Positions 11,306 to 25,874 of a stretch of DNA of 64,000 nt are shown here, piece after piece. The notes beneath the pieces were generated by a model. The model was not told the DNA's origin. It saw only the letters and a list, made by a program, of their open reading frames with translations, and ran no database searches. Both the position numbers and the translations under genes were made by a program. Source of the stretch: an uncultured Winogradskyella sp. Its GTDB lineage: Bacteria; Bacteroidota; Bacteroidia; Flavobacteriales; Flavobacteriaceae. Position 1 is the stretch's first letter. Each line of letters begins with the position of its first letter. The stretch lies in assembly GCF_947496485.1 (NCBI RefSeq), contig NZ_CANMCZ010000001.1, positions 1,759,384 to 1,823,383 on the forward strand, read 5' to 3'.

Positions 11306-12958
11306 TTACTTTTTCTTAGAGATGCTATCTGCCATAATTAAAGCATTATATGCATTAATAACTTTACCAGATTTAGAGAGTTGATTAAAAGGTAGTAGAG
11401 TATCATTTACTCTTACATCATATGTGTACTCTAATCCACTGTCCATGAGGATATGTTTAACTTGAGAAGCTGTAAGGTTTGGATAATGAGAACGTACCAG
11501 CGCTGCTACTCCCGAAGTTACAGCACATGATAAAGAAGTCCCACCATCAATAAGTTCGTACTTTTCTTTAGTTACTGAAGTTGTATATATTTCCACACCA
11601 GGTGCAAATACATCTACATTACTGGAACCGTAATTTGAAAAAGAAGGTATCATATTTTTGTTAATGTAGTAATTGGTGGCACCTACCATTAGGAAATTAT
11701 CAGCAACTTCTTCTCGATTGAAATAATTATTATCATTTGGGTAAACCTCAAAGTATTCTAAATCTTTACCATTGTTTCCAGCTGATTTAACAATTAATAC
11801 ATCATTTTGTTCAGCATATTTGATAGCGTCAAACACCCATTTTTTATATAATGAAAACTCTTTACCAAAACTCATATTAATTACTCTGGCTCCATTATCT
11901 ACTGCATAACGAATTGCTAAAGCTATATCTTTGTCGTGCTCATCACCAAATGCAGAGATAGAAAGAGGCATGATTTTAATATTGTCTGAGATTCCTTTAG
12001 TGCCTATATTATTATCTCTTCTTGCTGCTATTAATCCTGCTATGAGAGTCCCATGGTCAAAAAAACCATTATAAATATTTATTTCAGGGCTACCATAATT
12101 TTTCTCATTTAAACTATCAGAATTATCGCCAATTATTATACGATCATTGTAATCTTTATTCAGTAATTTATCTAATCGTTCATCAGCTTTGAGTTTATAC
12201 AAGTCAATATATTCATCTGTAAATTCATATTTGATTAAAGCTTTCATCCACCTTGTATGTAATTTAATAATAGAATCTTTAGGATGAAGATTTTTTAAAC
12301 TGTCTAAATCTTTAATTGAATAGTTGTCATCAATAAAAAATTTTGATAATGTCTCTTTAGCTAAACTTTTACCACGCTTTTGAATATTTATATAGCTAGT
12401 GTCTTCAATTGCATATTGAAGCCTTTTTTCATATTTATCTCTAGCCCTAAGATAAGTCTTATAAAGCAAAGAATCAGTTATCAAATTATTTTCAAAATCG
12501 CTATCATACTTCTTTAAAATTCTTGTGTATTCGTAATTAACAAATTTTGATGTTTCACCATTTACATTACCGATAAAATTCCATCCATTTATGTCATCTA
12601 TGTAACCGTTGTTATCATCATCTAGACCGTTATTAGAAATTTCTTTCTTATTAATCCAAATGTTTTGTCTTAAATCTTCATGATAGATGTTTAACGGCAT
12701 GTCTATGATAGCAACAATAACCTCTTCTGAGTTATTTCTATTATTAATAATACTATCGTAAGCTTTATCTAAACTTATACCCGGTAGATTGTCTAATTCT
12801 AAATCTTTTAAATGCCAAGATTTCAGATTTTCCTCTGATATTTTTTTTTGTGGAATGGAGTCATTCGTCCCGTTAATATATGATAGATTTAATTTTTTAT
12901 CGCAACAATGTAAACAAGCAAAAAAGATTAAAATTATAAAGAGAAGATTTTTTAACAT
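11306..12958 (-). CDS. S8 (subtilisin-like) serine peptidase, predicted lipoprotein; RiPP-locus protease candidate
   Basis: Lipobox-like N terminus (FFACLHCC); catalytic blocks VAIIDM, DHGTLIAGLIAA, GGTSLSCAVTSGVAAL. Confidence 0.88.
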   Translation of the reverse strand: MLKNLLFIILIFFACLHCCDKKLNLSYINGTNDSIPQKKISEENLKSWHLKDLELDNLPGISLDKAYDSIINNRNNSEEVIVAIIDMPLNIYHEDLRQNIWINKKEISNNGLDDDNNGYIDDINGWNFIGNVNGETSKFVNYEYTRILKKYDSDFENNLITDSLLYKTYLRARDKYEKRLQYAIEDTSYINIQKRGKSLAKETLSKFFIDDNYSIKDLDSLKNLHPKDSIIKLHTRWMKALIKYEFTDEYIDLYKLKADERLDKLLNKDYNDRIIIGDNSDSLNEKNYGSPEINIYNGFFDHGTLIAGLIAARRDNNIGTKGISDNIKIMPLSISAFGDEHDKDIALAIRYAVDNGARVINMSFGKEFSLYKKWVFDAIKYAEQNDVLIVKSAGNNGKDLEYFEVYPNDNNYFNREEVADNFLMVGATNYYINKNMIPSFSNYGSSNVDVFAPGVEIYTTSVTKEKYELIDGGTSLSCAVTSGVAALVRSHYPNLTASQVKHILMDSGLEYTYDVRVNDTLLPFNQLSKSGKVINAYNALIMADSISKKK

Positions 12959-13024: not shown

Positions 13025-13195
13025 TTAATCGCCAGTATCAGTATCGTCATCAGGTGGGCAAATTATAGTGCTTTTTTTTGGTCTTTTCCCTCTAGTGTCT
13101 GTACCATCATCATCACCGAGTCCAGTACCCCCATAAATTACTTTTGGATTACTGAGCTTTGCAATCTTAAAAGATTCTAATTTCAATTTTTTCAT
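13025..13195 (-). CDS. RiPP precursor peptide (56 aa), GG-type leader, class I lanthipeptide-like; absent from the supplied ORF track
   Basis: Translated from the sequence: MKKLKLESFKIAKLSNPKVIYGG/TGLGDDDGTDTRGKRPKKSTIICPPDDDTDTGD*. KLKLxxFKIAKL leader and GG boundary; next to split LanB genes. Confidence 0.85.
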   Translation of the reverse strand: MKKLKLESFKIAKLSNPKVIYGGTGLGDDDGTDTRGKRPKKSTIICPPDDDTDTGD

Positions 13196-13263
13196 AGATA
13201 TAAATATTAAGTTCGAAACTTAAATATATTGGTAATTTTGCATTCAATACAAATAAATCATAT

Positions 13264-13281
13264 CCAAATTCATGAATTTGG
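13264..13281. promoter_or_regulatory. Perfect 18-bp palindrome CCAAATTCATGAATTTGG upstream of the precursor (operator candidate)
   Basis: Exact self-reverse-complement; near-identical copies in the 18.1-kb divergent promoter. Confidence 0.75.
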
Positions 13282-13307: not shown

Positions 13308-14978
13308 TTAGGAATTTTTCAACAATTGTTTTATGAAAAAATTTGGAGAAATATTAGTTTGTCTTTTAAAAGCTCTAGTAAATGATTCTGCTTTTTTAAA
13401 TCCAACTTCATTTGCAATTGCAATTAAAGTATATTTTTTAAAATTTTCATCTGTTTTTAATTTTTCCATAACGTATTCGATTCTAAGGTCATTAATATAA
13501 TGTGTAAAAGATTTGTTTTTATAGTGATTCACAACCTTAGACAGATATCTGACGTTTGTATTAATTTTTTTTGCAAGAACACTAGAAGTTAAGTCCGAAG
13601 ATAGAAATTGATGTTGTTCTTCAAATTCATTTAATTGTTCTAGTATATCACTAATAACCTTGTCGGAAATCTCAAGAGAAGATTTTATTTCATTATCTAA
13701 AACAGGTATCTCTTTATGGGATTGAATTTGTAGGCCATTATTTGTTAACTCTAGGAAACGCTTTTTATAGAGTTTTCTTTTATTGTATTGATAGTATACT
13801 ATTATCAATAAAATAATGGAGACAAAGCCGAGTAGAGATAAATACAATGTTTTATTTTTTTCTTTCTGCTTTATAGCACTTATAATTTTTTCTTTTTCAG
13901 TTATGAGTTTAGGAATATCATATTTTTTTATTAAATTTTTATTTATATAGAGTTCATTAGAATGCAAGGTGCTATCTAACTTAATTAATTGATTAATATA
14001 AACCAATTCTTGTTTAAAGTCCTTTTTGGTTTTATAATGATTTATAAGTATTTCATAAGACTCTCTGATTTTAGGATGCAAATCATAATTTTCTCTAAAA
14101 ATACTATCAACTTTTTTTAGGTTTGATATTTTTTTTATTTCATTTCCAAAAGCTTCATTAATTTTTGCCAAATAATAATAGCTTACAGCCAGATTTGGTT
14201 TATCGTCTATTTGCAATAATATTGGTATGGATTTTTTGATGCTATCTTGGGCAAAGGAATATTGATTTCTAGAGTATTTAACAACACCTTCGTTTAAACG
14301 AAAATAGTTTTTGTAAATATCATCATCAAATGATTTTTTAAATCCAAGATTATTGAAGTGTGAAGCAGAATCTAGCTTCATATCTTCTTGGTATGCAGTT
14401 GATAATGCAAAAAGTGTCGGTAAAATAATATCCTCAAGATTATTTTTTTCTATATAGTAATAATTATCCTTTAGAATTTTTACAGCATTATTGTTTTCCC
14501 CTATTCTAGATTTTAAAAGCCCGATTAGTAGATTACATGCAGCAATATTATCTTTATCGTTATGTTTTTTAGAATAAAATAGTGACTCAAGTACATTATC
14601 CATTGCTTTTTTAAAATCTCTCTTTTCGTAATAAAAATTAGCTTTACTGTAATATGCCAAAGTGGGAAAATATTTATTACTATTTTCTCTTGAAAGGGAA
14701 ATAATACTATCTGCATATACAAGTGCTTTTTCATCATTATAGATATTTACTTTCATGTAATAACCTTCTAAAAGATAATGAGCGTTATTTTCATTTTTTG
14801 ATTTTAATAAAAATGCATTGGTATATATATTTTGTAAATTTTCATCGTCAGTATTCCAATAACCGTTATATAAATCTTTATAGGATTTATCTTTTAAGGA
14901 ATCTACAACTTTTTGTGCTATAACAGGTTGTATATAACTGAATAGGATTATAAAAATAATTGATAATTTTATTTTCAC
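13308..14978 (-). CDS. TPR-containing, membrane-spanning AraC-family HTH regulator
   Basis: Signal/TPR-like N terminus, one TM (LYLSLLGFVSIILLIIVYY), C-terminal AraC HTH (YTLIAIANEVGFKKAESFTRAFKRQTNISPNFF). Confidence 0.88.
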   Translation of the reverse strand: MKIKLSIIFIILFSYIQPVIAQKVVDSLKDKSYKDLYNGYWNTDDENLQNIYTNAFLLKSKNENNAHYLLEGYYMKVNIYNDEKALVYADSIISLSRENSNKYFPTLAYYSKANFYYEKRDFKKAMDNVLESLFYSKKHNDKDNIAACNLLIGLLKSRIGENNNAVKILKDNYYYIEKNNLEDIILPTLFALSTAYQEDMKLDSASHFNNLGFKKSFDDDIYKNYFRLNEGVVKYSRNQYSFAQDSIKKSIPILLQIDDKPNLAVSYYYLAKINEAFGNEIKKISNLKKVDSIFRENYDLHPKIRESYEILINHYKTKKDFKQELVYINQLIKLDSTLHSNELYINKNLIKKYDIPKLITEKEKIISAIKQKEKNKTLYLSLLGFVSIILLIIVYYQYNKRKLYKKRFLELTNNGLQIQSHKEIPVLDNEIKSSLEISDKVISDILEQLNEFEEQHQFLSSDLTSSVLAKKINTNVRYLSKVVNHYKNKSFTHYINDLRIEYVMEKLKTDENFKKYTLIAIANEVGFKKAESFTRAFKRQTNISPNFFIKQLLKNS

Positions 14979-15829
14979 TTTAATGAAGGTTTAAATAAAT
15001 CAGTCTTATATTCTTTATATAAAACATCATAAATTAAGAATTCGTATAATCTTTGGTTAGAATTAAAGTATCTGTTAATAGTCATGTGTATGATACTACT
15101 CGTAAGATTATTTAAACTAACTTCTACATTACCACTATTATAAAGCTCGTTAATTTTTGTAAAAGTCTGATTAGTATTTTCAGAATAAGTTTTAAGTAAC
15201 TGCAATAAATTAGTTTTTCTAAAGCTTTCTTTTTGTGAAAGAATTTTTCTGCTTCTTTCACTAAGATCTTTCATAGTTATTTTGTTTGCGTTGAATTCTG
15301 ACTTAAAAGCATTTCTACCTTTTTCAGCAAATTTAAATTTGCTCTCTTTTGAAAATTTAAACTGAGATAATATTATAGAAATAAGTTTTACAATAAAGAT
15401 AATACTCTCTTCTTCTGTAAGCTGTTTTTCCTTTGCTTTTAAAATTGTTTCACTATCCCAGAAGAAAAGATTTTCAATATAAGTAATTGTAGATGAGCCA
15501 TAACGTTCAATTTCTCGTTTGTATTGGTGCAATTGAACATCCCAAATAAATCCTGAATTTAAGTGAGGTATTAGTAATTTTTTTAACTCAGAAATAATAA
15601 TACCAGTATGTGTTTCGCAGATAAGTTTAAATCTAATTCTAAGATGAAAATCAGGATCATTATAACGAATAAAAAACCATGATGAAATAATATTATTATC
15701 TAACTGTTTTTTAGTAAATGGTACAATAGCATCAATTAATATATCATCTGCTACATTTACACCACAGTATAGTTTATAATACATCCATTGGTCCCCTATT
15801 ACAAAATTTCTTTTAATACTATTTTCCAC
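14975..15829 (-). CDS. Thiopeptide-type bacteriocin biosynthesis domain protein (LanB C-terminal elimination half)
   Basis: DQWMYYKLYCGVNVADDILIDAI...SSWFFIRYNDPDFHLRIRFK is typical of the SpaB_C/elimination domain. Overlaps the upstream LanB N-half. Confidence 0.88.
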   Translation of the reverse strand: MENSIKRNFVIGDQWMYYKLYCGVNVADDILIDAIVPFTKKQLDNNIISSWFFIRYNDPDFHLRIRFKLICETHTGIIISELKKLLIPHLNSGFIWDVQLHQYKREIERYGSSTITYIENLFFWDSETILKAKEKQLTEEESIIFIVKLISIILSQFKFSKESKFKFAEKGRNAFKSEFNANKITMKDLSERSRKILSQKESFRKTNLLQLLKTYSENTNQTFTKINELYNSGNVEVSLNNLTSSIIHMTINRYFNSNQRLYEFLIYDVLYKEYKTDLFKPSLK

Positions 15830-18044
15830 CTTGTATCTTGTTTAATTTTTCTTCATTATATAATGAAACAATAAATTGATTACAAAATGAATTACTATTT
15901 TGTTTAACAACACTTTCTTTGTCAAATAAAAACTCTTTTAGTTTGAATAGCTTTAAATTTTTAATAGTTTTAAATAGCATTCTTATTGAGGTAGCATTCT
16001 TCATGTTAATTAATAATAAGTTATCACCTTCTACTAGTTGTACTAATTCTGGCATTTGTATAGCAGTTCTCCATATTCTCATTTTTTCCACCAAATCGTC
16101 ATTATCTAGTTGAAAGTACTTAACAATATTTTCTGTCTTAATATTCCATTGCGCTTTAGAAAATATTACAGAATTATGTTCTACTCTTGGTAAGAAAGAT
16201 AAATTCTCTAAAATAGGATGCCATTGAAATCCAATACCATTTCGCTTATCTTGATATTGCATATCGCAAAGGAAATAATAAATAGGTAACGCATTTGCGT
16301 AGTTATGAGCATTGGTTAAGCGAGGTAAAATTTCTATATCTAGACGTTTTGAGCGTAAAACAATTTTATTGTTTTTTACTGAAATCATTATATCACTTAT
16401 AGGAATCTGATTTTTATATGGCAATCCCGATTTTCCTAAGAATGGAATTTCATAATCTCTAACTGATGGACGCCTTAATATGTTTCCTGTTCTCGATTGA
16501 GGCAGATGTATAATTTCTGAGAGTACCTTATTTGGATTCATTTTCTTTTCAACTTGAGTAATTTCTTCAACTTGTTTGAAAATTTTAGCATGCCCATGAC
16601 TAAATCTTGCTAAAATATTCGCCGCGCTAGAACCTCCAAGCCAATTAAAGACTAATCTTTCTACATTATCAATAATAACAACCTCAATCATTGAAGCCAT
16701 AGTGTCTGGTAAATCATTCCATTCGCATCCTAAATCTTTAAAATCATTTTCGTTTAACTTTAAAGTATACTTTTGATTACTTAGACAATTAGTAATTTTC
16801 TCAAGAAGAATAGAATCAACTGTTGTCCATTTGATATTTTTGCTTTGTGTGCTTTTATTAGGTAAATGTATATTTTCCAAAAGAGGATTATTATCATCTA
16901 GGGAATGAGAATATCCGATACCTATTTCAGTATCTAATACCTCATAAAGCGGTAACTCTCTTGTTTCATATCTTTTTTTAAAAGCTATTTTAAAGTTTTC
17001 TATTTTCGAGTTTTTTTGAAATAGAGTTATTTTATTTAGAATTATCATACTTTGTCTAATAGACTTTATATGATTTTTATTGAGCGTGTTTTTATAAGCT
17101 GAAGCAAATAAATCAACTTGTAGAATATGTTTTTTTATATGTTTTGTTTCTTTAAACTCATTTTCTATCCAATTATAAAATTCATAGTAATTATTTGGCT
17201 TTTTAGTATCTAATATTTTAATTTTATTATTTAACTCTTTAATTGATTTAAGGTGCTTTTTAGGAATAGATAATAACTCTAATTGTTCTATAAGAAATGA
17301 TAGATTATTAGAATTGGTGATAATTATTTGAAGTTCAGATACTAAAATTTGTTTTTCTACAAGCTCATTTATAAAACTTAATGCCTCTGTTTTATCAATA
17401 TCTTTAGAAATTAATAATGAAGCGAAATCATCCAATGTTTTTCCTCTTATAGCTTCACTTAAAATTATTTCCAAATAATCGGAATATAAAGCCCCATCCA
17501 AATAATAAATTCTATTATTATCATTATATATGTAACCTATATAACGATATTGATTACCAACTTTATATAAACTAGAATTTACAACATATTGAATTTTATT
17601 TTTAACCCCATTAAGTTTAGATATTCTATCAATTAATGCGGATAAGAAGGACATGTCTAACCGAGTAAAAGTTTTATATGAACTCAAACCTTTTAATTCT
17701 ATTTCTGTATCATTAGAAAATGAGCCTTCAACACAATTTGCAAATAACCCAAAAGGGGTTGCTCTAGTCGTAATTCTAGTTAAGTACTTTAAAATTGAAA
17801 GCTTAATCTGCTCAATCTTTTTGCTATTTTCAATTTTATTATTCTGCCAATAACCAAACTGTTTTACAAGTTCAGGAGATGCTAAGGTTAGTGCTTTTAT
17901 AAAGAAATCATCCTCAAATAGCTTTTTAAAGCATGCATCGGTAATTTCATAACTTTCAGTTATGCTATTATATAATTGTACTGAACGTGTTGGAGTTCTT
18001 AGGCAATAGAATGGAAATGCTTTATAAGGACTTTTAAATTTCAA
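15819..18044 (-). CDS. Lantibiotic dehydratase LanB N-terminal (glutamylation) half
   Basis: RTPTRSVQLYNSI, TRATPFGLFANC, LPQSRTGNILRRPSVRDYEIPFLGKSG motifs of LanB N-domains. Confidence 0.9.
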   Translation of the reverse strand: MKFKSPYKAFPFYCLRTPTRSVQLYNSITESYEITDACFKKLFEDDFFIKALTLASPELVKQFGYWQNNKIENSKKIEQIKLSILKYLTRITTRATPFGLFANCVEGSFSNDTEIELKGLSSYKTFTRLDMSFLSALIDRISKLNGVKNKIQYVVNSSLYKVGNQYRYIGYIYNDNNRIYYLDGALYSDYLEIILSEAIRGKTLDDFASLLISKDIDKTEALSFINELVEKQILVSELQIIITNSNNLSFLIEQLELLSIPKKHLKSIKELNNKIKILDTKKPNNYYEFYNWIENEFKETKHIKKHILQVDLFASAYKNTLNKNHIKSIRQSMIILNKITLFQKNSKIENFKIAFKKRYETRELPLYEVLDTEIGIGYSHSLDDNNPLLENIHLPNKSTQSKNIKWTTVDSILLEKITNCLSNQKYTLKLNENDFKDLGCEWNDLPDTMASMIEVVIIDNVERLVFNWLGGSSAANILARFSHGHAKIFKQVEEITQVEKKMNPNKVLSEIIHLPQSRTGNILRRPSVRDYEIPFLGKSGLPYKNQIPISDIMISVKNNKIVLRSKRLDIEILPRLTNAHNYANALPIYYFLCDMQYQDKRNGIGFQWHPILENLSFLPRVEHNSVIFSKAQWNIKTENIVKYFQLDNDDLVEKMRIWRTAIQMPELVQLVEGDNLLLINMKNATSIRMLFKTIKNLKLFKLKEFLFDKESVVKQNSNSFCNQFIVSLYNEEKLNKIQGGK

Positions 18045-18091
18045 GTTTAAATCATTTGAAGCTAAAATACATTATTAGGTATACTTTTCAC

Positions 18092-18109
18092 CCAATTTCG
18101 CGAATTTGG
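18092..18109. promoter_or_regulatory. Imperfect 18-bp palindrome CCAATTTCGCGAATTTGG (one mismatched pair)
   Basis: In the lanB/gws divergent intergenic region; centre 21 bp from the next palindrome. Confidence 0.7.
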
Positions 18110-18112
18110 CAC

Positions 18113-18130
18113 CCAAATTCATGAATATGG
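18113..18130. promoter_or_regulatory. Imperfect 18-bp palindrome CCAAATTCATGAATATGG
   Basis: One mismatched pair; flanks match the 13264-13281 site on the opposite strand (ACCCAAATTCATGAATwTGGATAT). Confidence 0.72.
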
Positions 18131-18257: not shown

Positions 18258-18443
18258 ATGGAAAGTTTAAAAAAATTTGAGAATTTATCCTTAGCAAATA
18301 CAAAAGATATATTTGGAGGAAAGGAGCTTAAGACAGAACAGAGAAATGATGCAAATGAAGTGTTGTATACAGACTCTCATCATGACAATGATAATGATGG
18401 TAAATGGAGTTGCGGTGATACTTTTACACTGACTAAAGTTTAA
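18258..18443 (+). CDS. RiPP precursor 1 (61 aa) with FGG leader end and EF-hand-like loop
   Basis: MESLKKFENLSLANTKDIFGG leader; core contains DNDNDGKWSCGD. Confidence 0.83.
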   Translation: MESLKKFENLSLANTKDIFGGKELKTEQRNDANEVLYTDSHHDNDNDGKWSCGDTFTLTKV

Positions 18444-18463: not shown

Positions 18464-18676
18464 ATGAAAAGCATAGAAAATTTTAAGGATGAGCAATTTG
18501 TTTGCTCAAACATATTTGGTTCATGGGATGGTATACATGGAACACCTGGTGGTACTTTTCAAGGTATGGAATACTCATCAGATGTATTTATTGATAAGAA
18601 CGGAGATGGCAAATGGGGCAGTGGTGAAAGTGTAATCATGCATTTTTGTGATCCTCCTACCGTACAACAAGGATAA
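18464..18676 (+). CDS. RiPP precursor 2 (70 aa) with EF-hand-like loop
   Basis: MKSIENFKDEQFVCSNIFGSWDG leader-like start; core contains DKNGDGKWGSGE. Tandem with precursor 1. Confidence 0.78.
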   Translation: MKSIENFKDEQFVCSNIFGSWDGIHGTPGGTFQGMEYSSDVFIDKNGDGKWGSGESVIMHFCDPPTVQQG

Positions 18677-18768: not shown

Positions 18769-19248
18769 ATGCATAGGTTAATTATAGTTTTTTCATTGGT
18801 TTTTAACTTCTGTGTTATCAACTCTCAAGAAAAAGTAGAAAAAAAAATACTTCCTGATATCTTAATATTAGAATTAAAATCTATAACTCAAAGTGACCAA
18901 AAATATCGCTCAATAATTGTTGAAAACAGAGAAAGTCTTTCTAAAAAAGATAAAGATAGTTTATGGGTCTTACAAGATGAAATTGATATAAATAATACTA
19001 TAAGAGTTATTGAAATAATTAAAGAATATGGATATATATCAAGTAGTAATTCAAACTCAAATTTTCCCATGCATATAATATTAATGCATACACCGAATAA
19101 TTTAAAAAGTGAAGTTTTAGAATTAATTGAAAAAGAGAATAGAGCTGGGAGAATAGTTAAAAGTTCTTATGGTCTTATTAAGTGGCATTTAGAAGGAAGA
19201 AAAGAAGTCAAGTTAGATTATTTCAAAAAAAATGATTCTACTAATTAG
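18769..19248 (+). CDS. Secreted protein, DUF6624-like; paralogue of 21765-22376; possible immunity/accessory protein
   Basis: N-terminal signal peptide; shares DQKYR...KDSLW.LQ.....NT...IEI...GRI.K..Y..I.WH..GRKE with the 21.8-kb gene. Confidence 0.65.
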   Translation: MHRLIIVFSLVFNFCVINSQEKVEKKILPDILILELKSITQSDQKYRSIIVENRESLSKKDKDSLWVLQDEIDINNTIRVIEIIKEYGYISSSNSNSNFPMHIILMHTPNNLKSEVLELIEKENRAGRIVKSSYGLIKWHLEGRKEVKLDYFKKNDSTN

Positions 19249-20194
19249 CAGTAAATATGATATAACATCACTAAATGTTTCTAGATGGCTAAGCAAACTA
19301 AAAGCGGACTTCTTTAGTTTAAATACTGAAGACTTTAATTCTCTAAACTCTTTCTCATTATTAGATAATGATATTAATGTCAAAATAAATGGAGTTGATT
19401 TTTCTGATGTAGATACAGTTTGGCATAGAAGAGGAAGGTTAAGACATATTCCAAAAGAATTAAATGGATTAGGCAGTTATAGTGAGTATCTAAAAAAGGA
19501 AGAAGATGCTCTTATAAAATCTATAGAGCTTTATTTAAAGAGTTCAACAAACTATATTGGTTCATATATAAAAGAGGTCGAAAATTATAAACTTTACAAT
19601 TTAATTAAAGCAAAAGAAGCTGGTCTAAAAATACCTAAAACTTTGGTGACAACTTCTAAATCTGAATTGTTGGATTTTATAAATAATAGAACCGCAATAT
19701 CAAAAGATATAAGATATTCTGTAAACATAAGAACTCAAAGTAAGTATATATCTTCAATAGGAACTTTTATTGTTCAAAGAGATGACCTTGAATTATTAGA
19801 AGACAATTTTGCGCCAATTCTCGTACAAGAATTAATTCAGAAAGAGTTTGAAATCAGGGTTTTTTTCTTTGACAATACTTTCTATGCAATGGCTATTTTT
19901 TCTCAAGATGATGAAAAAACTAAATTAGACTACAGGAATTATAATGAAGAAAAACAGAATAGATGTGTTCCTTTTATTCTGCCAAACCGAATCAAAAATA
20001 AATTAATTGCTTTCGCGAAAAAAGTAAACATTAGAACAGGTTCTATAGACATTATTTATACAACTTCAGGGGAGTATATTTTTTTAGAAGTTAATCCAAT
20101 GGGACAACTTGATTGGGTGTCAAAAAACTGCAACTACCATATAGAAAAGAACATAGCTAATAATCTATTTAAAAGTAGAAATGAAAGGAATTAA
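19232..20194 (+). CDS. gwsG: Grasp-with-spasm system ATP-grasp peptide maturase
   Basis: ATP-grasp fold sequence (VWHRRGRLRHIP, PILVQELIQKEFEIRVFFFDN, FLEVNPMGQLDW) directly upstream of the SPASM partner. Confidence 0.88.
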   Translation: MILLISSKYDITSLNVSRWLSKLKADFFSLNTEDFNSLNSFSLLDNDINVKINGVDFSDVDTVWHRRGRLRHIPKELNGLGSYSEYLKKEEDALIKSIELYLKSSTNYIGSYIKEVENYKLYNLIKAKEAGLKIPKTLVTTSKSELLDFINNRTAISKDIRYSVNIRTQSKYISSIGTFIVQRDDLELLEDNFAPILVQELIQKEFEIRVFFFDNTFYAMAIFSQDDEKTKLDYRNYNEEKQNRCVPFILPNRIKNKLIAFAKKVNIRTGSIDIIYTTSGEYIFLEVNPMGQLDWVSKNCNYHIEKNIANNLFKSRNERN

Positions 20195-20372
20195 ACAAAA
20201 ATTACCTCTTACGATTCAGAAGGCGAATTCTGAAGACTATATAAATGCTTCGAGTGGAAAGATGAAAGGCACAGAAAAATTTATTTCTATAAAAAAGTTC
20301 AATTCGGAAGTAAAACCTCAAGGTTTTTACAAGCCAATATCTAAAATGATTTCAATTAATGGTACAAAATAA
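20181..20372 (+). CDS. Small basic protein (63 aa) overlapping both gwsG and gwsS; function unknown
   Basis: 14-nt overlaps at both ends, indicating a translationally coupled cistron; Lys-rich. Confidence 0.62.
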   Translation: MKGIKQKLPLTIQKANSEDYINASSGKMKGTEKFISIKKFNSEVKPQGFYKPISKMISINGTK

Positions 20373-21435
20373 AACTTTTAAACTCTTTTCAAATTGCATT
20401 CCGGTTAAAGGAGCTAAAAGAAGTACGATATGCGATCTTCAGAGAAATGAGGTTAAATTAATTCCGAATGATTTAGCTGAAATTTTGATCAAATATGAAG
20501 GAAAAGCTATTGGTGAAATAAAAGTAATTTATCAAAATAAATACGATTCTATTATTGATGAGTATTTTGAGTTTCTGTTAGAAAATGAGTTTATATTCTT
20601 TACAAATCAACCAGAATTATTTCCCAAAATGAGTTTAGATTGGGAAGATCCATCAGTTATAAATAATGCCATTATCGATAGAGATTCAAATTCTAATTAC
20701 GATTTATATAATATACTTGATCAGTTAGACGAGTTGAACTGTAGGCATATTGAATTACGATACTTTAATTCAATTGAATTAACCGAAATCTTAGATATAT
20801 TGAAATATCTTGAAAATGCCCAATCCACAATTATTTCAGTTGATGTTACTATGCCTTATAATGAATCACTTAGAAATTTAAATGATGTTATCATTAAAAA
20901 TAAGCGATTAGCATCATTTAAAATATTTAATTCTTTAGAAGATACTTTTACACCACCTCTTAAGGAAAATATGGGTTTCATAATTTACACTAAAAAACAA
21001 ATTAAGAACAGCTCGTGCTGTGGTCTTATATCTAAAGATTTTTTTGTAGTAAACACGCCTCTTTTCACAGAAAGTGTAAATCATAATAGTTGCCTAAACC
21101 ATAAGGTTGGAATTGATGTAGATGGTAATATCAAAAATTGTCCTTCAATGAAGAAAAGTTTTGGTAATGTTTTGTCACAAACATTGGAAGAATGCTTAAA
21201 TAAGAAGACTTTTAAAAAGTATTGGAAAGTAAAAAAAGACAATATAAATATTTGCAAAGATTGCGAATTCAGGCATATATGTACCGATTGCAGGGCGTTT
21301 ATAGAAGATCCTAACGATATATATTCCAAACCATTAAAATGTGGTTACAATCCTTATACAAACGAATGGAAAGATTGGAGTACTAATAAGCTAAATATAA
21401 AAACAATTCAATCATATCATTTAGATGGAAAATAA
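20359..21435 (+). CDS. gwsS: Grasp-with-spasm system SPASM domain peptide maturase
   Basis: FKLFSNCIPVKGAKRSTICDLQRNEVKLIPNDL N terminus; C-terminal SPASM-type Cys set (GIDVDGNIKNCPSM...CKDCEFRHICTDCRAF...CGYNPYT). No CxxxCxxC. Confidence 0.88.
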   Translation: MVQNKTFKLFSNCIPVKGAKRSTICDLQRNEVKLIPNDLAEILIKYEGKAIGEIKVIYQNKYDSIIDEYFEFLLENEFIFFTNQPELFPKMSLDWEDPSVINNAIIDRDSNSNYDLYNILDQLDELNCRHIELRYFNSIELTEILDILKYLENAQSTIISVDVTMPYNESLRNLNDVIIKNKRLASFKIFNSLEDTFTPPLKENMGFIIYTKKQIKNSSCCGLISKDFFVVNTPLFTESVNHNSCLNHKVGIDVDGNIKNCPSMKKSFGNVLSQTLEECLNKKTFKKYWKVKKDNINICKDCEFRHICTDCRAFIEDPNDIYSKPLKCGYNPYTNEWKDWSTNKLNIKTIQSYHLDGK

Positions 21436-21496: not shown

Positions 21497-21700
21497 ATGA
21501 AAAAATTAAGTCAAGTTAATTTCGAAGAAATGAGATTGTCTAACTTACATCAAGTAAGAGGTGGAGATGGTGGTACTACCTATACTGGTAACCAAGGTAG
21601 TTCAGGTACTGATTGTTATTGTGATAATGACGGCGACGGTAAATTGAGTAAAGGTGATGACGTATTACTAGATAATGGTCAATGGATTGTAAAAAAATAG
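21497..21700 (+). CDS. RiPP precursor 3 (67 aa) with RGG leader end and EF-hand loop
   Basis: MKKLSQVNFEEMRLSNLHQVRGG leader; core contains CYCDNDGDGKLSKGDD. Confidence 0.85.
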   Translation: MKKLSQVNFEEMRLSNLHQVRGGDGGTTYTGNQGSSGTDCYCDNDGDGKLSKGDDVLLDNGQWIVKK

Positions 21701-21708
21701 TATTTCAG

Positions 21709-21751
21709 CAATATCTTAAGTATTTCTTATATTTAAGATATTGTTTTATTT
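21709..21751 (+). terminator. Hairpin plus T-tract after precursor 3
   Basis: Perfect 11-bp arms CAATATCTTAA/TTAAGATATTG, then TTTTATTT. Confidence 0.75.
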
Positions 21752-21764
21752 AAAACATAGAAAC

Positions 21765-22376
21765 ATGAAATATTATAGTTTTTTTTTAATGATTTTTTTT
21801 ATTGCATCAAGTTGTAAATCTAACAAGTATGAGGATAATGAAGTTTTGTGCGAAGTATTAGTCAATATATACGATGATGATCAAAAATATAGAGGAAAGG
21901 AAAGTGAGCTAGTCGATCCTTTTTTTAAAATATTAGATTCAATAATGATCTCTGAAGGAATAACTAAGAAAGAATATATAAAATTTGAAAAAAACAAACA
22001 ATTAGTCTATGGAAAAATTGCCAGAGGAGTTGCAGACAAAAGAAACGAAGTATCTAAAAAAGTGAAGGATTCTTTATGGGATTTGCAGAGTAGCTTGGAT
22101 GAAAAGAACACTAAAATACTAATAGAAATAGTTGAGGAAAGAGGTTTTCCTGATATAAAAAAGTTAGAATGTAAGGGATATGCTTCTCCGTTTTTAATTT
22201 TTGTACATTCACCAGAAGAATATTGGGGTGAAATAAAAAATATTCTTGACCAAGAGATTAAAAGTGACAGAATAACAAAAGGCGACTACGATTATATAAT
22301 GTGGCATATTAATGGTCGAAAAGAAGGGCCTTTATCTCCTATACCTATTGAAGATATCCAAATTATAGAAGATTAA
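21765..22376 (+). CDS. Lipoprotein, DUF6624-like, paralogue of 18769-19248 (track start 21741 lies inside the hairpin)
   Basis: ATG at 21765 gives MKYYSFFLMIFFIASSCKS, a lipoprotein signal; homologous C-terminal half to the 18.8-kb protein. Confidence 0.68.
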   Translation: MKYYSFFLMIFFIASSCKSNKYEDNEVLCEVLVNIYDDDQKYRGKESELVDPFFKILDSIMISEGITKKEYIKFEKNKQLVYGKIARGVADKRNEVSKKVKDSLWDLQSSLDEKNTKILIEIVEERGFPDIKKLECKGYASPFLIFVHSPEEYWGEIKNILDQEIKSDRITKGDYDYIMWHINGRKEGPLSPIPIEDIQIIED

Positions 22377-22384
22377 TATATTTT

Positions 22385-24577
22385 GTGTTGAAAAAATTCC
22401 CATTCTACAAGCAACGAGATAACAAAGACTGTGGTCCAACCTGTCTAAAAATAATAACCAAATATTTTAACAAAAGCATTGCTATACAGCAGCTCAGAGA
22501 ATTAAGTGAAACTACAAGAGCAGGTAGCAGTTTACTAGGTTTGAGTGAAGCAGCAGAAAAGATAGGCTTTAGGAGTCTTGGCGTGAAACTTACTTTAAAA
22601 CGCTTATTGGAGGCACCATTACCATGCATTGTACATTGGAATAACAACCACTACACAGTACTTTACAAAATAAAGAAAGAAGTCTTTTATATTTCAGACC
22701 CAGCTCACGGTTTGTTAAAATACAATAAAAAAGAATTTTTAAATCATTGGATTGGTCACAACGCTTCAGACCAAACAGAAGAAGGTATAGCATTATTATT
22801 AGAACCAACAGCAAAATTCTATAATTCAGATTTTGATAAAGGAAAAACAGAATTTGGATTTAAATTTTTATCAAAATACATCTTTAAATACAAGCGCTTT
22901 TTATGGCAACTAATAATTGGTCTAATAGCTGCAAGTTTACTACAGTTAATATTTCCCTTTTTAACCCAAAGTGTAGTAGATGTTGGTATTAAAAACCAAG
23001 ACATCCATTTTATATATTTAATCTTATTTGCACAATTAGCTTTATTTATTGGACGAACAGCTATAGAGGTTATTAGGAGTTGGATTTTATTACATTTAAG
23101 TACACGTATTAATATATCTTTAGTTTCAGATTTCTTTATAAAGCTAATGAATTTGCCAATAGCCTTCTTTGATACGCGCATGACTGGGGACATTTTGCAA
23201 CGTATCAATGATCATAAGCGTATTGAGCGAATTTTAACTACATCGTCACTCAACGTATTGTTTTCAATGGTGAATTTGTTGGTGTTTAGTTTTGTATTGG
23301 CATATTATAACCTAATGCTCTTTGGCATATTTCTTTTAGGTAGCTTTCTCTATTTTTTATGGATCATTATTTTTCTCAAAAAACGAAGAGATTTAGATTA
23401 TAAACGTTTTTCAGAAGTGAGCCAAGAACAAAGCAAAGTAATTGAACTCATTAATGGTATGCAAGAAATAAAATTGCATAATGCAGAAAAGCAAAAAAGG
23501 TGGTCTTGGGAGTTTGTGCAAGCACGTTTATTTAGAGTATCTATTGAGGGTTTAGCTTTAGAACAATACCAAAGTGTAGGTTCTGGTTTCATTAATGAGG
23601 TTAAAAATATTTTAATCACAGTATTGTCTGCTAAATTGGTTATAGATGGTGACATCACTTTAGGTATGATGTTAGCTATTAGCTATATTGTTGGGCAGTT
23701 AAACTCACCAATATCGCAACTTATTAATTTTATAAGAGAAGTACAGGATGCTAAAATATCTTTAGATCGTTTATCGGAAATTCATAATAAAGAAGACGAA
23801 GAACAGCAAGATGTTGAGAAGCTTATGGATATTCCATTAGATGCTAACTTAGAATTATCAAAAGTATCTTTTAGATATGTTGGGTCAGATCAAATGGTAT
23901 TAAAAGATCTGGATTTAACAATACCTGCTAAAAAAGTTACGGCTATTGTTGGTGTAAGTGGAAGTGGAAAAACCACTTTAATGAAATTGTTACTAAAGTT
24001 TTATGATCCAAACAACGGGCAAATAAAAATTGGTCATCACGATTTGCAAAATGTTTCACAAAAAACATGGAGACATCAGTGTGGAGTCGTAATGCAAGAA
24101 GGTTATATATTTAATGATACCATTGCAAATAATATAGCGGTTGGAGAAGATTATGTGGATAAAAAGAAATTAGCGCACGCCGTTGATGTTGCAAATATTA
24201 AAGAGTTTATTGAATCGTTACCATTATCATATAATACCAAAATAGGTATGGAGGGGATTGGTGTCAGCACAGGGCAAAAACAACGTTTGTTAATCGCTAG
24301 ATCAGTTTATAAAAATCCTAATTTCTTATTTTTTGATGAAGCGACCTCTGCATTAGATGCTAATAATGAAAAGGTAATTATGGAAAAACTAAATACCTTT
24401 TTTGAAGATAAAACTGTAGTTGTTATCGCACATAGATTAAGTACTGTGAAAAATGCACATCAGATTGTGGTATTAGATAAAGGGAAGATTGTAGAAGTTG
24501 GCAATCATGAAGCTTTAGTAAAACAAAAAGGAAACTACTTTAATTTGGTTAAGAATCAGTTAGAACTCGGTAAATAG
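22385..24577 (+). CDS. Peptidase C39 domain-containing ABC transporter (leader-cleaving RiPP exporter)
   Basis: C39 residues DCGPTCL, HWNNNHYTV, ISDPAHG; ABC motifs GVSGSGKTTL, VSTGQKQRLLIAR, FLFFDEATSALD. Confidence 0.95.
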   Translation: MLKKFPFYKQRDNKDCGPTCLKIITKYFNKSIAIQQLRELSETTRAGSSLLGLSEAAEKIGFRSLGVKLTLKRLLEAPLPCIVHWNNNHYTVLYKIKKEVFYISDPAHGLLKYNKKEFLNHWIGHNASDQTEEGIALLLEPTAKFYNSDFDKGKTEFGFKFLSKYIFKYKRFLWQLIIGLIAASLLQLIFPFLTQSVVDVGIKNQDIHFIYLILFAQLALFIGRTAIEVIRSWILLHLSTRINISLVSDFFIKLMNLPIAFFDTRMTGDILQRINDHKRIERILTTSSLNVLFSMVNLLVFSFVLAYYNLMLFGIFLLGSFLYFLWIIIFLKKRRDLDYKRFSEVSQEQSKVIELINGMQEIKLHNAEKQKRWSWEFVQARLFRVSIEGLALEQYQSVGSGFINEVKNILITVLSAKLVIDGDITLGMMLAISYIVGQLNSPISQLINFIREVQDAKISLDRLSEIHNKEDEEQQDVEKLMDIPLDANLELSKVSFRYVGSDQMVLKDLDLTIPAKKVTAIVGVSGSGKTTLMKLLLKFYDPNNGQIKIGHHDLQNVSQKTWRHQCGVVMQEGYIFNDTIANNIAVGEDYVDKKKLAHAVDVANIKEFIESLPLSYNTKIGMEGIGVSTGQKQRLLIARSVYKNPNFLFFDEATSALDANNEKVIMEKLNTFFEDKTVVVIAHRLSTVKNAHQIVVLDKGKIVEVGNHEALVKQKGNYFNLVKNQLELGK

Positions 24578-24578
24578 T

Positions 24579-25874
24579 ATGCCAGATAATAATTTAGAAA
24601 ATATAGAACTTCGAAGTGAAGAAGTACAAGAAATACTTACCAAAGTACCACATTGGATGATACGTTGGGGAAATGTCTTGTTTTTGTCTTTAATATTGAT
24701 GCTGCTTTTTTTGTCTTGGTTTGTGAAATATCCAGATATTATTCTTTCTGAAGCAGTTATAACAACTCAAATTCCACCACAAAAAGAGTATGCTAAAATA
24801 ACAGGTAAGTTAAATGCGATTTTAGTAGACGACAACCAAAGTGTTGAGAGTAATCAACCATTGGCAATATTAGAAAATACTGCCAATTATAGAGATGTTT
24901 ATAAATTAAAATCTGTCATTGATACTATAACTGTTAACAGTAAATCATTTCAATTTCCTGTAGATAGTTTGCCAATATTATTTTTAGGTGATATAGAATC
25001 GCAATATGCGTTGTTTGAAAACAACTATAATCAATATTTACTCAATAAAGAGTTACAACCTTTTTCCAATGAAGCACTAGCTAATAAATATTCAATTTCA
25101 GAACTGAATAGACGTTTACAAAGTCTAAAGCGACAACGCGATATTAACAAGACAGAATTAGAGTATGCTCAAATTGGACTAAATAGGCAAAAAAAATTAT
25201 TTAATAAAGGAGTTATTTCTGCTCAAGATTATGAAAACACTCAATTGCAATATGCAAGAGAAGAACGTAATTATAAAAATTTCGAATCATCTATTTCGCA
25301 AATACGAGAAGCCATAAGCAGAGCGCATATGACTTCAAAAGGCACTGAAATAAATAGAACAAAGGAAGAGATGACTTTACTTAAAAACGTTATTCAATCC
25401 TTTAATCAACTAAAAAATGCTATTAAAGACTGGGAAAGAATTTATGTTTTAAAATCAGATATAAATGGCAACGTGTCTTTTTTAAACTTCTGGAATAATA
25501 ATCAAACTGTAAATCAAGGTGATTTAGTGTTTACGATTATTCCAATTGAGAACTCATCATTTATAGCAAAACTTAAAACACCTGCCCAAAATTCTGGAAA
25601 AATTAAAGTTGGGCAAAACGTAAATGTAAAACTAGAAAATTATCCTGATACTGAGTTTGGAGTATTGAATGGCAAAGTGAAAAATATTTCACTCATTCCA
25701 GATAAAGAAGGCTTATACTTTATCGACGTGGAATTACCTAAAAAGCTAATTACTTCTTACAATAAAAACATAGAATTTAAACAAGAAATGAGAGGTTCTG
25801 CAGAAATTATAACAGAAGACTTAAGACTCATTGAACGTTTCTTTTATCAATTTAAGGAAATTGTAAAACGCTAA
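24579..25874 (+). CDS. HlyD family secretion/adaptor protein, partner of the C39 ABC exporter
   Basis: N-terminal TM, coiled coil, HlyD-type barrel region; directly downstream of the exporter. Confidence 0.92.
   Translation: MPDNNLENIELRSEEVQEILTKVPHWMIRWGNVLFLSLILMLLFLSWFVKYPDIILSEAVITTQIPPQKEYAKITGKLNAILVDDNQSVESNQPLAILENTANYRDVYKLKSVIDTITVNSKSFQFPVDSLPILFLGDIESQYALFENNYNQYLLNKELQPFSNEALANKYSISELNRRLQSLKRQRDINKTELEYAQIGLNRQKKLFNKGVISAQDYENTQLQYAREERNYKNFESSISQIREAISRAHMTSKGTEINRTKEEMTLLKNVIQSFNQLKNAIKDWERIYVLKSDINGNVSFLNFWNNNQTVNQGDLVFTIIPIENSSFIAKLKTPAQNSGKIKVGQNVNVKLENYPDTEFGVLNGKVKNISLIPDKEGLYFIDVELPKKLITSYNKNIEFKQEMRGSAEIITEDLRLIERFFYQFKEIVKR

Follow-up and report, generated by a model that had tools for sequence, protein, structure and literature searches.

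Three copies of an 18-bp palindrome (O1–O3), found in a 64-kb stretch of the genome of an uncultured Winogradskyella sp. (hereafter, the window), are most likely (probability about 0.86) operators of the adjacent TPR-AraC regulator (REG), which would activate the lanA precursor gene and the LanB operon and probably the divergent operon too. The evidence is comparative: the site itself, its association with one regulator family, its constant distance from the -7 box, and covariation between operator bases and regulator residues. The three palindromes and the 21-bp distance between the centres of O2 and O3 had been pointed out in a preliminary description of this DNA, and all were recovered exactly there (Table 1). 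The parts belong to known kinds, namely AraC activators, TPR receptors and RiPP clusters; in open-access papers on grasp-with-SPASM peptides, lanthipeptides, pinensin and TPR/AraC regulators, we found no description of the operator or of the regulator-operator pair.

Table 1. Operators, predicted promoter boxes and genes in the window.
Feature	Position	Strand	Evidence or remark
Operator O1	13264–13281		perfect palindrome CCAAATTCATGAATTTGG; upstream of lanA
Operator O2	18092–18109		CCAATTTCGCGAATTTGG; 7/8 paired
Operator O3	18113–18130		CCAAATTCATGAATATGG; 7/8 paired
Predicted lanA -7 box	13221–13228	-	TATATTTA; 5/6 of TAnnTTTG; offset 35 from O1
Predicted LanB-operon -7 box	18062–18069	-	TATTTTAG; 5/6; offsets 43 from O3 and 22 from O2
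S8 subtilase, conserved neighbour	11306–12958	-	candidate leader/maturation protease
lanA, called as 56-aa GG-leader precursor peptide	13025–13195	-	MKKLKLESFKIAKLSNPKVIYGG/TGLGDDDGTDTRGKRPKKSTIICPPDDDTDTGD
REG, TPR-transmembrane-AraC regulator	13308–14978	-	HTH_18 E=1.6e-14; AF2 model; covariation
LanB C-terminal domain protein	14975–15829	-	PF14028/TIGR03891
LanB N-terminal dehydratase	15819–18044	-	PF04738
Two graspetide-type precursors	18258–18443, 18464–18676	+	counterpart in L152
ATP-grasp maturase	19232–20194	+	TIGR04192, 220 bits, just below cut-off 230
SPASM maturase	20359–21435	+	TIGR04193, 360 bits, cut-off 175
Further precursor, graspetide side	21497–21700	+	
C39-peptidase ABC exporter and HlyD membrane-fusion protein	22385–25874	+	

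The minus-strand and plus-strand gene sets start from one divergent region. The former includes both the N- and C-terminal domains of the LanB dehydratase of a class I lanthipeptide cluster (PF04738 and PF14028/TIGR03891) and the latter the ATP-grasp and SPASM maturase pair of a grasp-with-SPASM graspetide cluster, with the lanthipeptide and graspetide systems using a single promoter region. The lanA gene, which is the hidden precursor of the preliminary description, is shorter than the 60-aa cut-off of the open reading frame listing, and its product matched no Pfam or NCBIfam HMM, so the precursor call rests on its leader and position. The split LanB dehydratase (14975–18044) lies in a genome in which no LanC cyclase (PF05147) was detected; the product may be dehydrated without LanC-dependent cyclization. 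An EF-hand/dockerin-like core, DxDxDGKWSxGD, is common to all three precursors on the graspetide side and suggests either calcium binding or cross-linking through its acidic residues. Two paralogous-looking uncharacterized proteins (18769–19248 and 21741–22376; DQKYR...KDSLW.LQ..ID..NT) are encoded in between the graspetide genes; neither matched a Pfam profile.

REG consists of a signal-like N-terminus (signal peptide), a TPR solenoid, a transmembrane helix and a C-terminal AraC DNA-binding domain with two HTH motifs (PF12833, 54.4 bits versus a cut-off of 33.6). In the AF2 model (mean pLDDT 86.6), the helices of the AraC domain lie at residues 465–555 and a long helix crosses the predicted membrane segment; a transmembrane segment is present in 109 of 122 regulators of the family. 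The TPR domain is predicted to be extracytoplasmic (periplasmic) and the AraC domain cytoplasmic. By profile and Foldseek comparison, the TPR part resembles the peptide-binding TPRs of LGN and Rap proteins, the best structural matches being peptide-binding TPRs other than Rap (LGN). A REG paralogue in the same genome (L069, 33% identity) has neither such a palindrome nor peptide-maturation neighbours.

The palindromes are rare. Within the window, only O1–O3 match CCAAATTCRYGAATTTGG with up to three mismatches, compared with 0.19 matches expected from dinucleotide shuffles. Pattern searches of the whole 4.11-Mb genome likewise recovered only O1–O3 with 0–1 mismatch to CCAAATTCnnGAATTTGG, against zero-order expectations, at 33% GC, of 0.0015 exact and ~0.07 one-mismatch sites (~0.08 in total). 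All five sites with two mismatches (1.7 expected) are located within ORFs, the intergenic copies are confined to the peptide cluster, and a softer pattern gained no further sites genome-wide. The preliminary description had proposed a scan at up to two mismatches, with many random copies outside promoters counting against an operator; such copies turned out not to be abundant, which favours the operator reading. Although the sequence is AT-rich, the notion that the palindromes arose by chance or represent a dispersed repeat is refuted by the genome-wide counts together with the family-wide enrichment described below, and its probability is negligible. The flanking similarity (GGATAT.GATTTATTT), taken earlier as part of a 35-nt promoter module, can be seen in the sequence, but its conservation does not extend to relatives, and the module was dropped for that reason; nor does it hold up as a core promoter, the shared flank having no -7 box.

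Searches with LanB revealed S8-REG-LanB as a conserved module, and GTDB genomes scanned with a five-sequence regulator alignment yielded 79 further loci, mainly from Aquimarina, Flavobacterium, Tenacibaculum, Polaribacter and Kordia. Across the comparison set of 129 distinct TPR-transmembrane-AraC regulators, the core palindrome, NNNATT[C/T]nn[G/A]AATNNN, is found either directly 3' of the regulator stop codon (41 of 128 loci versus 2.4 in shuffles, maximum 7), as is O1, which lies 27 nt past the stop codon, or 40–320 nt 5' of the regulator start (32 of 127 loci versus 3.4, maximum 8). The corresponding densities are 2.4 and 0.96 palindromes per kb, compared with 0.07 per kb in the remainder of the loci. 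At 87 of the 128 regulators, the core palindrome was undetected 3' of the gene, suggesting that the sites of many family members are of another kind or degenerate.

The outer bases of the operator vary with the group: the window has CCA, Flavobacterium CGA, Tenacibaculum CTT and Kordia AC, and one group of genomes with Chryseobacterium-like gene content has AT. The variant of a given locus is found again at both of its promoters, with sites matching at 3.85 of the five variable positions within loci versus 2.31 between loci, a value reached in none of 10,000 permutations. The tandem arrangement of O2 and O3 also recurs, ±21 bp being the top self-similarity offset among sites 5' of the regulator; L131 carries three sites in 21-bp steps and L090 two. 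In two Tenacibaculum loci (L119 and L123), a second operator-like copy is located at 31–32 bp (three turns) rather than at 21 bp. Another conserved palindrome, TGTTTTGAACTCAAAACA, lies ~107 nt past the regulator stop codon in an Aquimarina-type group (L138, L140, L146, L149, L154 and L162) and might be either a different operator or a terminator. Some loci (L118, L124, L134, L137, L138, L162 and L175) contain two or three regulator genes in tandem, separated in L118 and L175 by short GG peptide genes.

The -7 box of Flavobacterium sigma-A promoters, TAnnTTTG, covers positions -12 to -5 (PMC9723704). Given the boxes in Table 1, transcription is predicted to start at ~13216 (lanA) and ~18057 (LanB), placing the operator centres at approximately -56.5 for O1 relative to lanA, and -43.5 (O2) and -64.5 (O3) relative to LanB. 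Counting against the operator reading, both boxes in the window match at five of six positions only, and LanB would have a TTG start codon and a leader of ~13 nt. In the family, an exact TAnnTTTG is found 43–44 nt past the palindrome at 15 of 43 downstream sites, whereas the mean is 2.5 and the maximum 6 when these regions are rotated at random. Boxes matching at five of six positions concentrate at 34–36 and 43–44 nt from the downstream palindromes and, on the divergent strand, at 34–35 and 54–56 nt from the upstream ones. The sequences between palindrome and box are non-homologous (35% identity versus 31% expected), which indicates that the constraint acts on the distance itself. The predicted spacing is activator geometry: operator centres in the family fall near -55, -65 and -76, in steps of one helical turn.

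This geometry bears on whether REG would activate or repress. AraC itself loops DNA and represses when ligand-free, and O2, at about -43, could overlap the -33 region of the LanB promoter, so the same regulator might act from the same sites as a repressor, or as an AraC-like repressor/activator switch, until freed by the signal. We consider this improbable because nearly all sites lie 5' of the core promoter, in helical register, at the usual activator positions, and no conserved -33 element is present in the downstream-type promoters. The promoter positions also weigh heavily against a role of the palindromes as RNA, that is, as terminator or attenuator hairpins 3' of the regulator or in leaders, to which the proximity of O1 to the regulator stop codon and the ability of the palindromes to fold might point. 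The palindromes precede the -7 box by 34–56 nt and so are not part of the peptide transcript, the tandem ones are within divergent promoters, and the hairpin would have a low-GC stem, a 2-nt loop and no T-run. A terminator hairpin was rejected for its missing T-run and its position external to the peptide transcript, and the RNA reading as a whole is very unlikely.

To identify the protein that binds the palindromes, we compared operators, called blind to protein sequence, with 59 regulators. Position 1 of the half-site is C together with Glu531 in 35 cases and non-C together with non-Glu in 22, leaving two exceptions (57/59). A caveat is that the sequences compared are related; on their tree, seven of the 8–10 changes fall on common branches. 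A scan that took the tree into account ranked this pair first of 760 (p=2.3e-5, uncorrected). The inner position 8 is C with Lys, Asn or Arg at residue 477 in 38 cases and non-C with other residues in 16, with five exceptions; for this pair, the tree-aware signal is only modest (p=4e-3, uncorrected). In the AF2 model, the two recognition helices span residues 476–486 and 530–541, with 477 and 531 each in second place. Covariation with both helices suggests that the 13308–14978 product very probably binds O1–O3, and this protein very probably activates both lanA and the LanB operon; the preliminary description had pointed to the same regulator.

The same data bear on the possibility that an unlinked DNA-binding protein reads the palindromes, their linkage to the TPR-AraC gene being mere cluster synteny. 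AraC-type proteins usually recognize direct repeats rather than palindromes, and palindromic sites are seldom found for them. However, the palindromes accompany the regulator even where LanB is missing from the flanks examined, occur on both sides of the regulator gene and covary in their variable bases with its two recognition helices, making an unlinked reader quite unlikely. As for how REG would sit on DNA, the inner base of one half-site is 10 bp from the outer base of the other, a spacing that would suit the two AraC HTHs on adjacent major grooves. A lone DNA-binding domain on each palindrome, with the dimer forming across the 21-bp tandem, would therefore be no less plausible than a dimer on each; the single dimeric regulator envisaged earlier fits the geometry, but one two-HTH domain per palindrome fits it equally well.

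The gene that follows an operator usually encodes a peptide with a double-glycine (GG) leader. A GG-leader ORF lies within 600 nt of 36 of the 41 regulators with a downstream palindrome and, irrespective of the palindrome, follows 80 of 126 regulators versus 1 of 88 control (other cluster) genes; at many loci, the upstream palindromes face divergent GG-leader peptide genes. The pairing of lanA-side and LanB-side operators is seen again at L075, L119, L122, L123, L131, L152 and L159, in some of them with 2–3 mismatches. There is thus a good case that the regulator of O1–O3 would control both lanA and the LanB operon, and to this extent the earlier proposal of one coordinating regulator stands. 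The graspetide arm, and with it the proposed coordination of both RiPP arms, is less clear-cut: on the gwsA side of the window, there is no -7 box at the canonical distance, the best candidate, GAGCTTGG, being degenerate (4/6). In L152, the Polaribacter counterpart, a 22-bp tandem is accompanied by a -7 box, TTAATTTG, which lies at offset 34 in the direction of a gwsA-like precursor. On balance, we lean towards a single regulator in control of both the lanthipeptide and the graspetide arm.

From these sequence comparisons, we infer that REG binds DNA, activates rather than represses, responds to a signal and also controls the graspetide arm, as follows. A signal would reach the predicted periplasmic TPR domain of REG, upon which the cytoplasmic AraC domain would bind O1, 5' of lanA, as well as the 21-bp tandem O2/O3, 5' of the LanB operon, activating the sigma-A promoters from positions near -43, -56 and -65. 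As the LanB operon includes REG, the circuit would involve positive autoregulation, and O2/O3 would probably govern the divergent grasp-with-SPASM operon as well. The location of a TPR receptor next to an exported-peptide gene hints at autoinduction, which we consider less likely than not. On that reading, the TPR-transmembrane-AraC proteins, as a large family in Bacteroidota, might represent private peptide-signalling circuits, in which the periplasmic TPR domain senses an exported, GG-cleaved, possibly modified peptide encoded by a neighbouring gene. If so, each regulator would turn on its peptide and maturation genes through its own operator variant, in an RRNPP-like autoinduction across the membrane.

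Bacteroidota RiPP clusters are often hard to express, and a likely switch can now be named, with its regulator, operator and promoter spacing. The switch family is represented here by 129 distinct genes, and its apparent role is to turn on secreted-peptide genes across flavobacteria. The two-position rule of base-residue recognition is testable, the operators allow discovery of unannotated precursor genes, and what the TPR sensor detects becomes directly accessible to experiment.

Among known systems, AraC/XylS activators (AraC at araI1-I2, MarA and ToxT) share with REG the two-HTH domain (PF12833) and sites at positions suited to activation. The araI1-I2 units of ~18 bp are repeated at 21 bp, like O2/O3. 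AraC/XylS sites are asymmetric and stand in direct repeat ~21 bp apart; here, 21-bp tandems recur, but each unit is itself palindromic and many sites are single. REG is predicted to be membrane-anchored with a TPR sensor, and its covarying specificity residues are equivalently placed in both recognition helices. With the RRNPP receptors of Firmicutes (Rap, PlcR and NprR), the system shares a TPR solenoid encoded beside a small exported-peptide gene, as seen for the 80 of 126 regulators followed by a GG-leader ORF. RRNPP receptors are cytosolic, with an N-terminal Xre-type HTH or phosphatase-type domain, whereas in REG, from a Gram-negative member of the Bacteroidota, the TPR domain is predicted to be extracytoplasmic and is connected by a transmembrane helix to the AraC domain. 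In lantibiotic autoinduction of the NisRK type, a cluster-encoded sensor controls the precursor and lan genes via common promoter elements; REG, by contrast, would be a one-component transmembrane regulator rather than a kinase/response-regulator pair. Finally, the split LanB, S8 protease, GG leader and C39 exporter are found in class I lanthipeptide clusters of Bacteroidota and the ATP-grasp and SPASM pair in grasp-with-SPASM graspetide clusters, but in the window, both sets of genes share one divergent promoter region, in a genome in which LanC was not detected.
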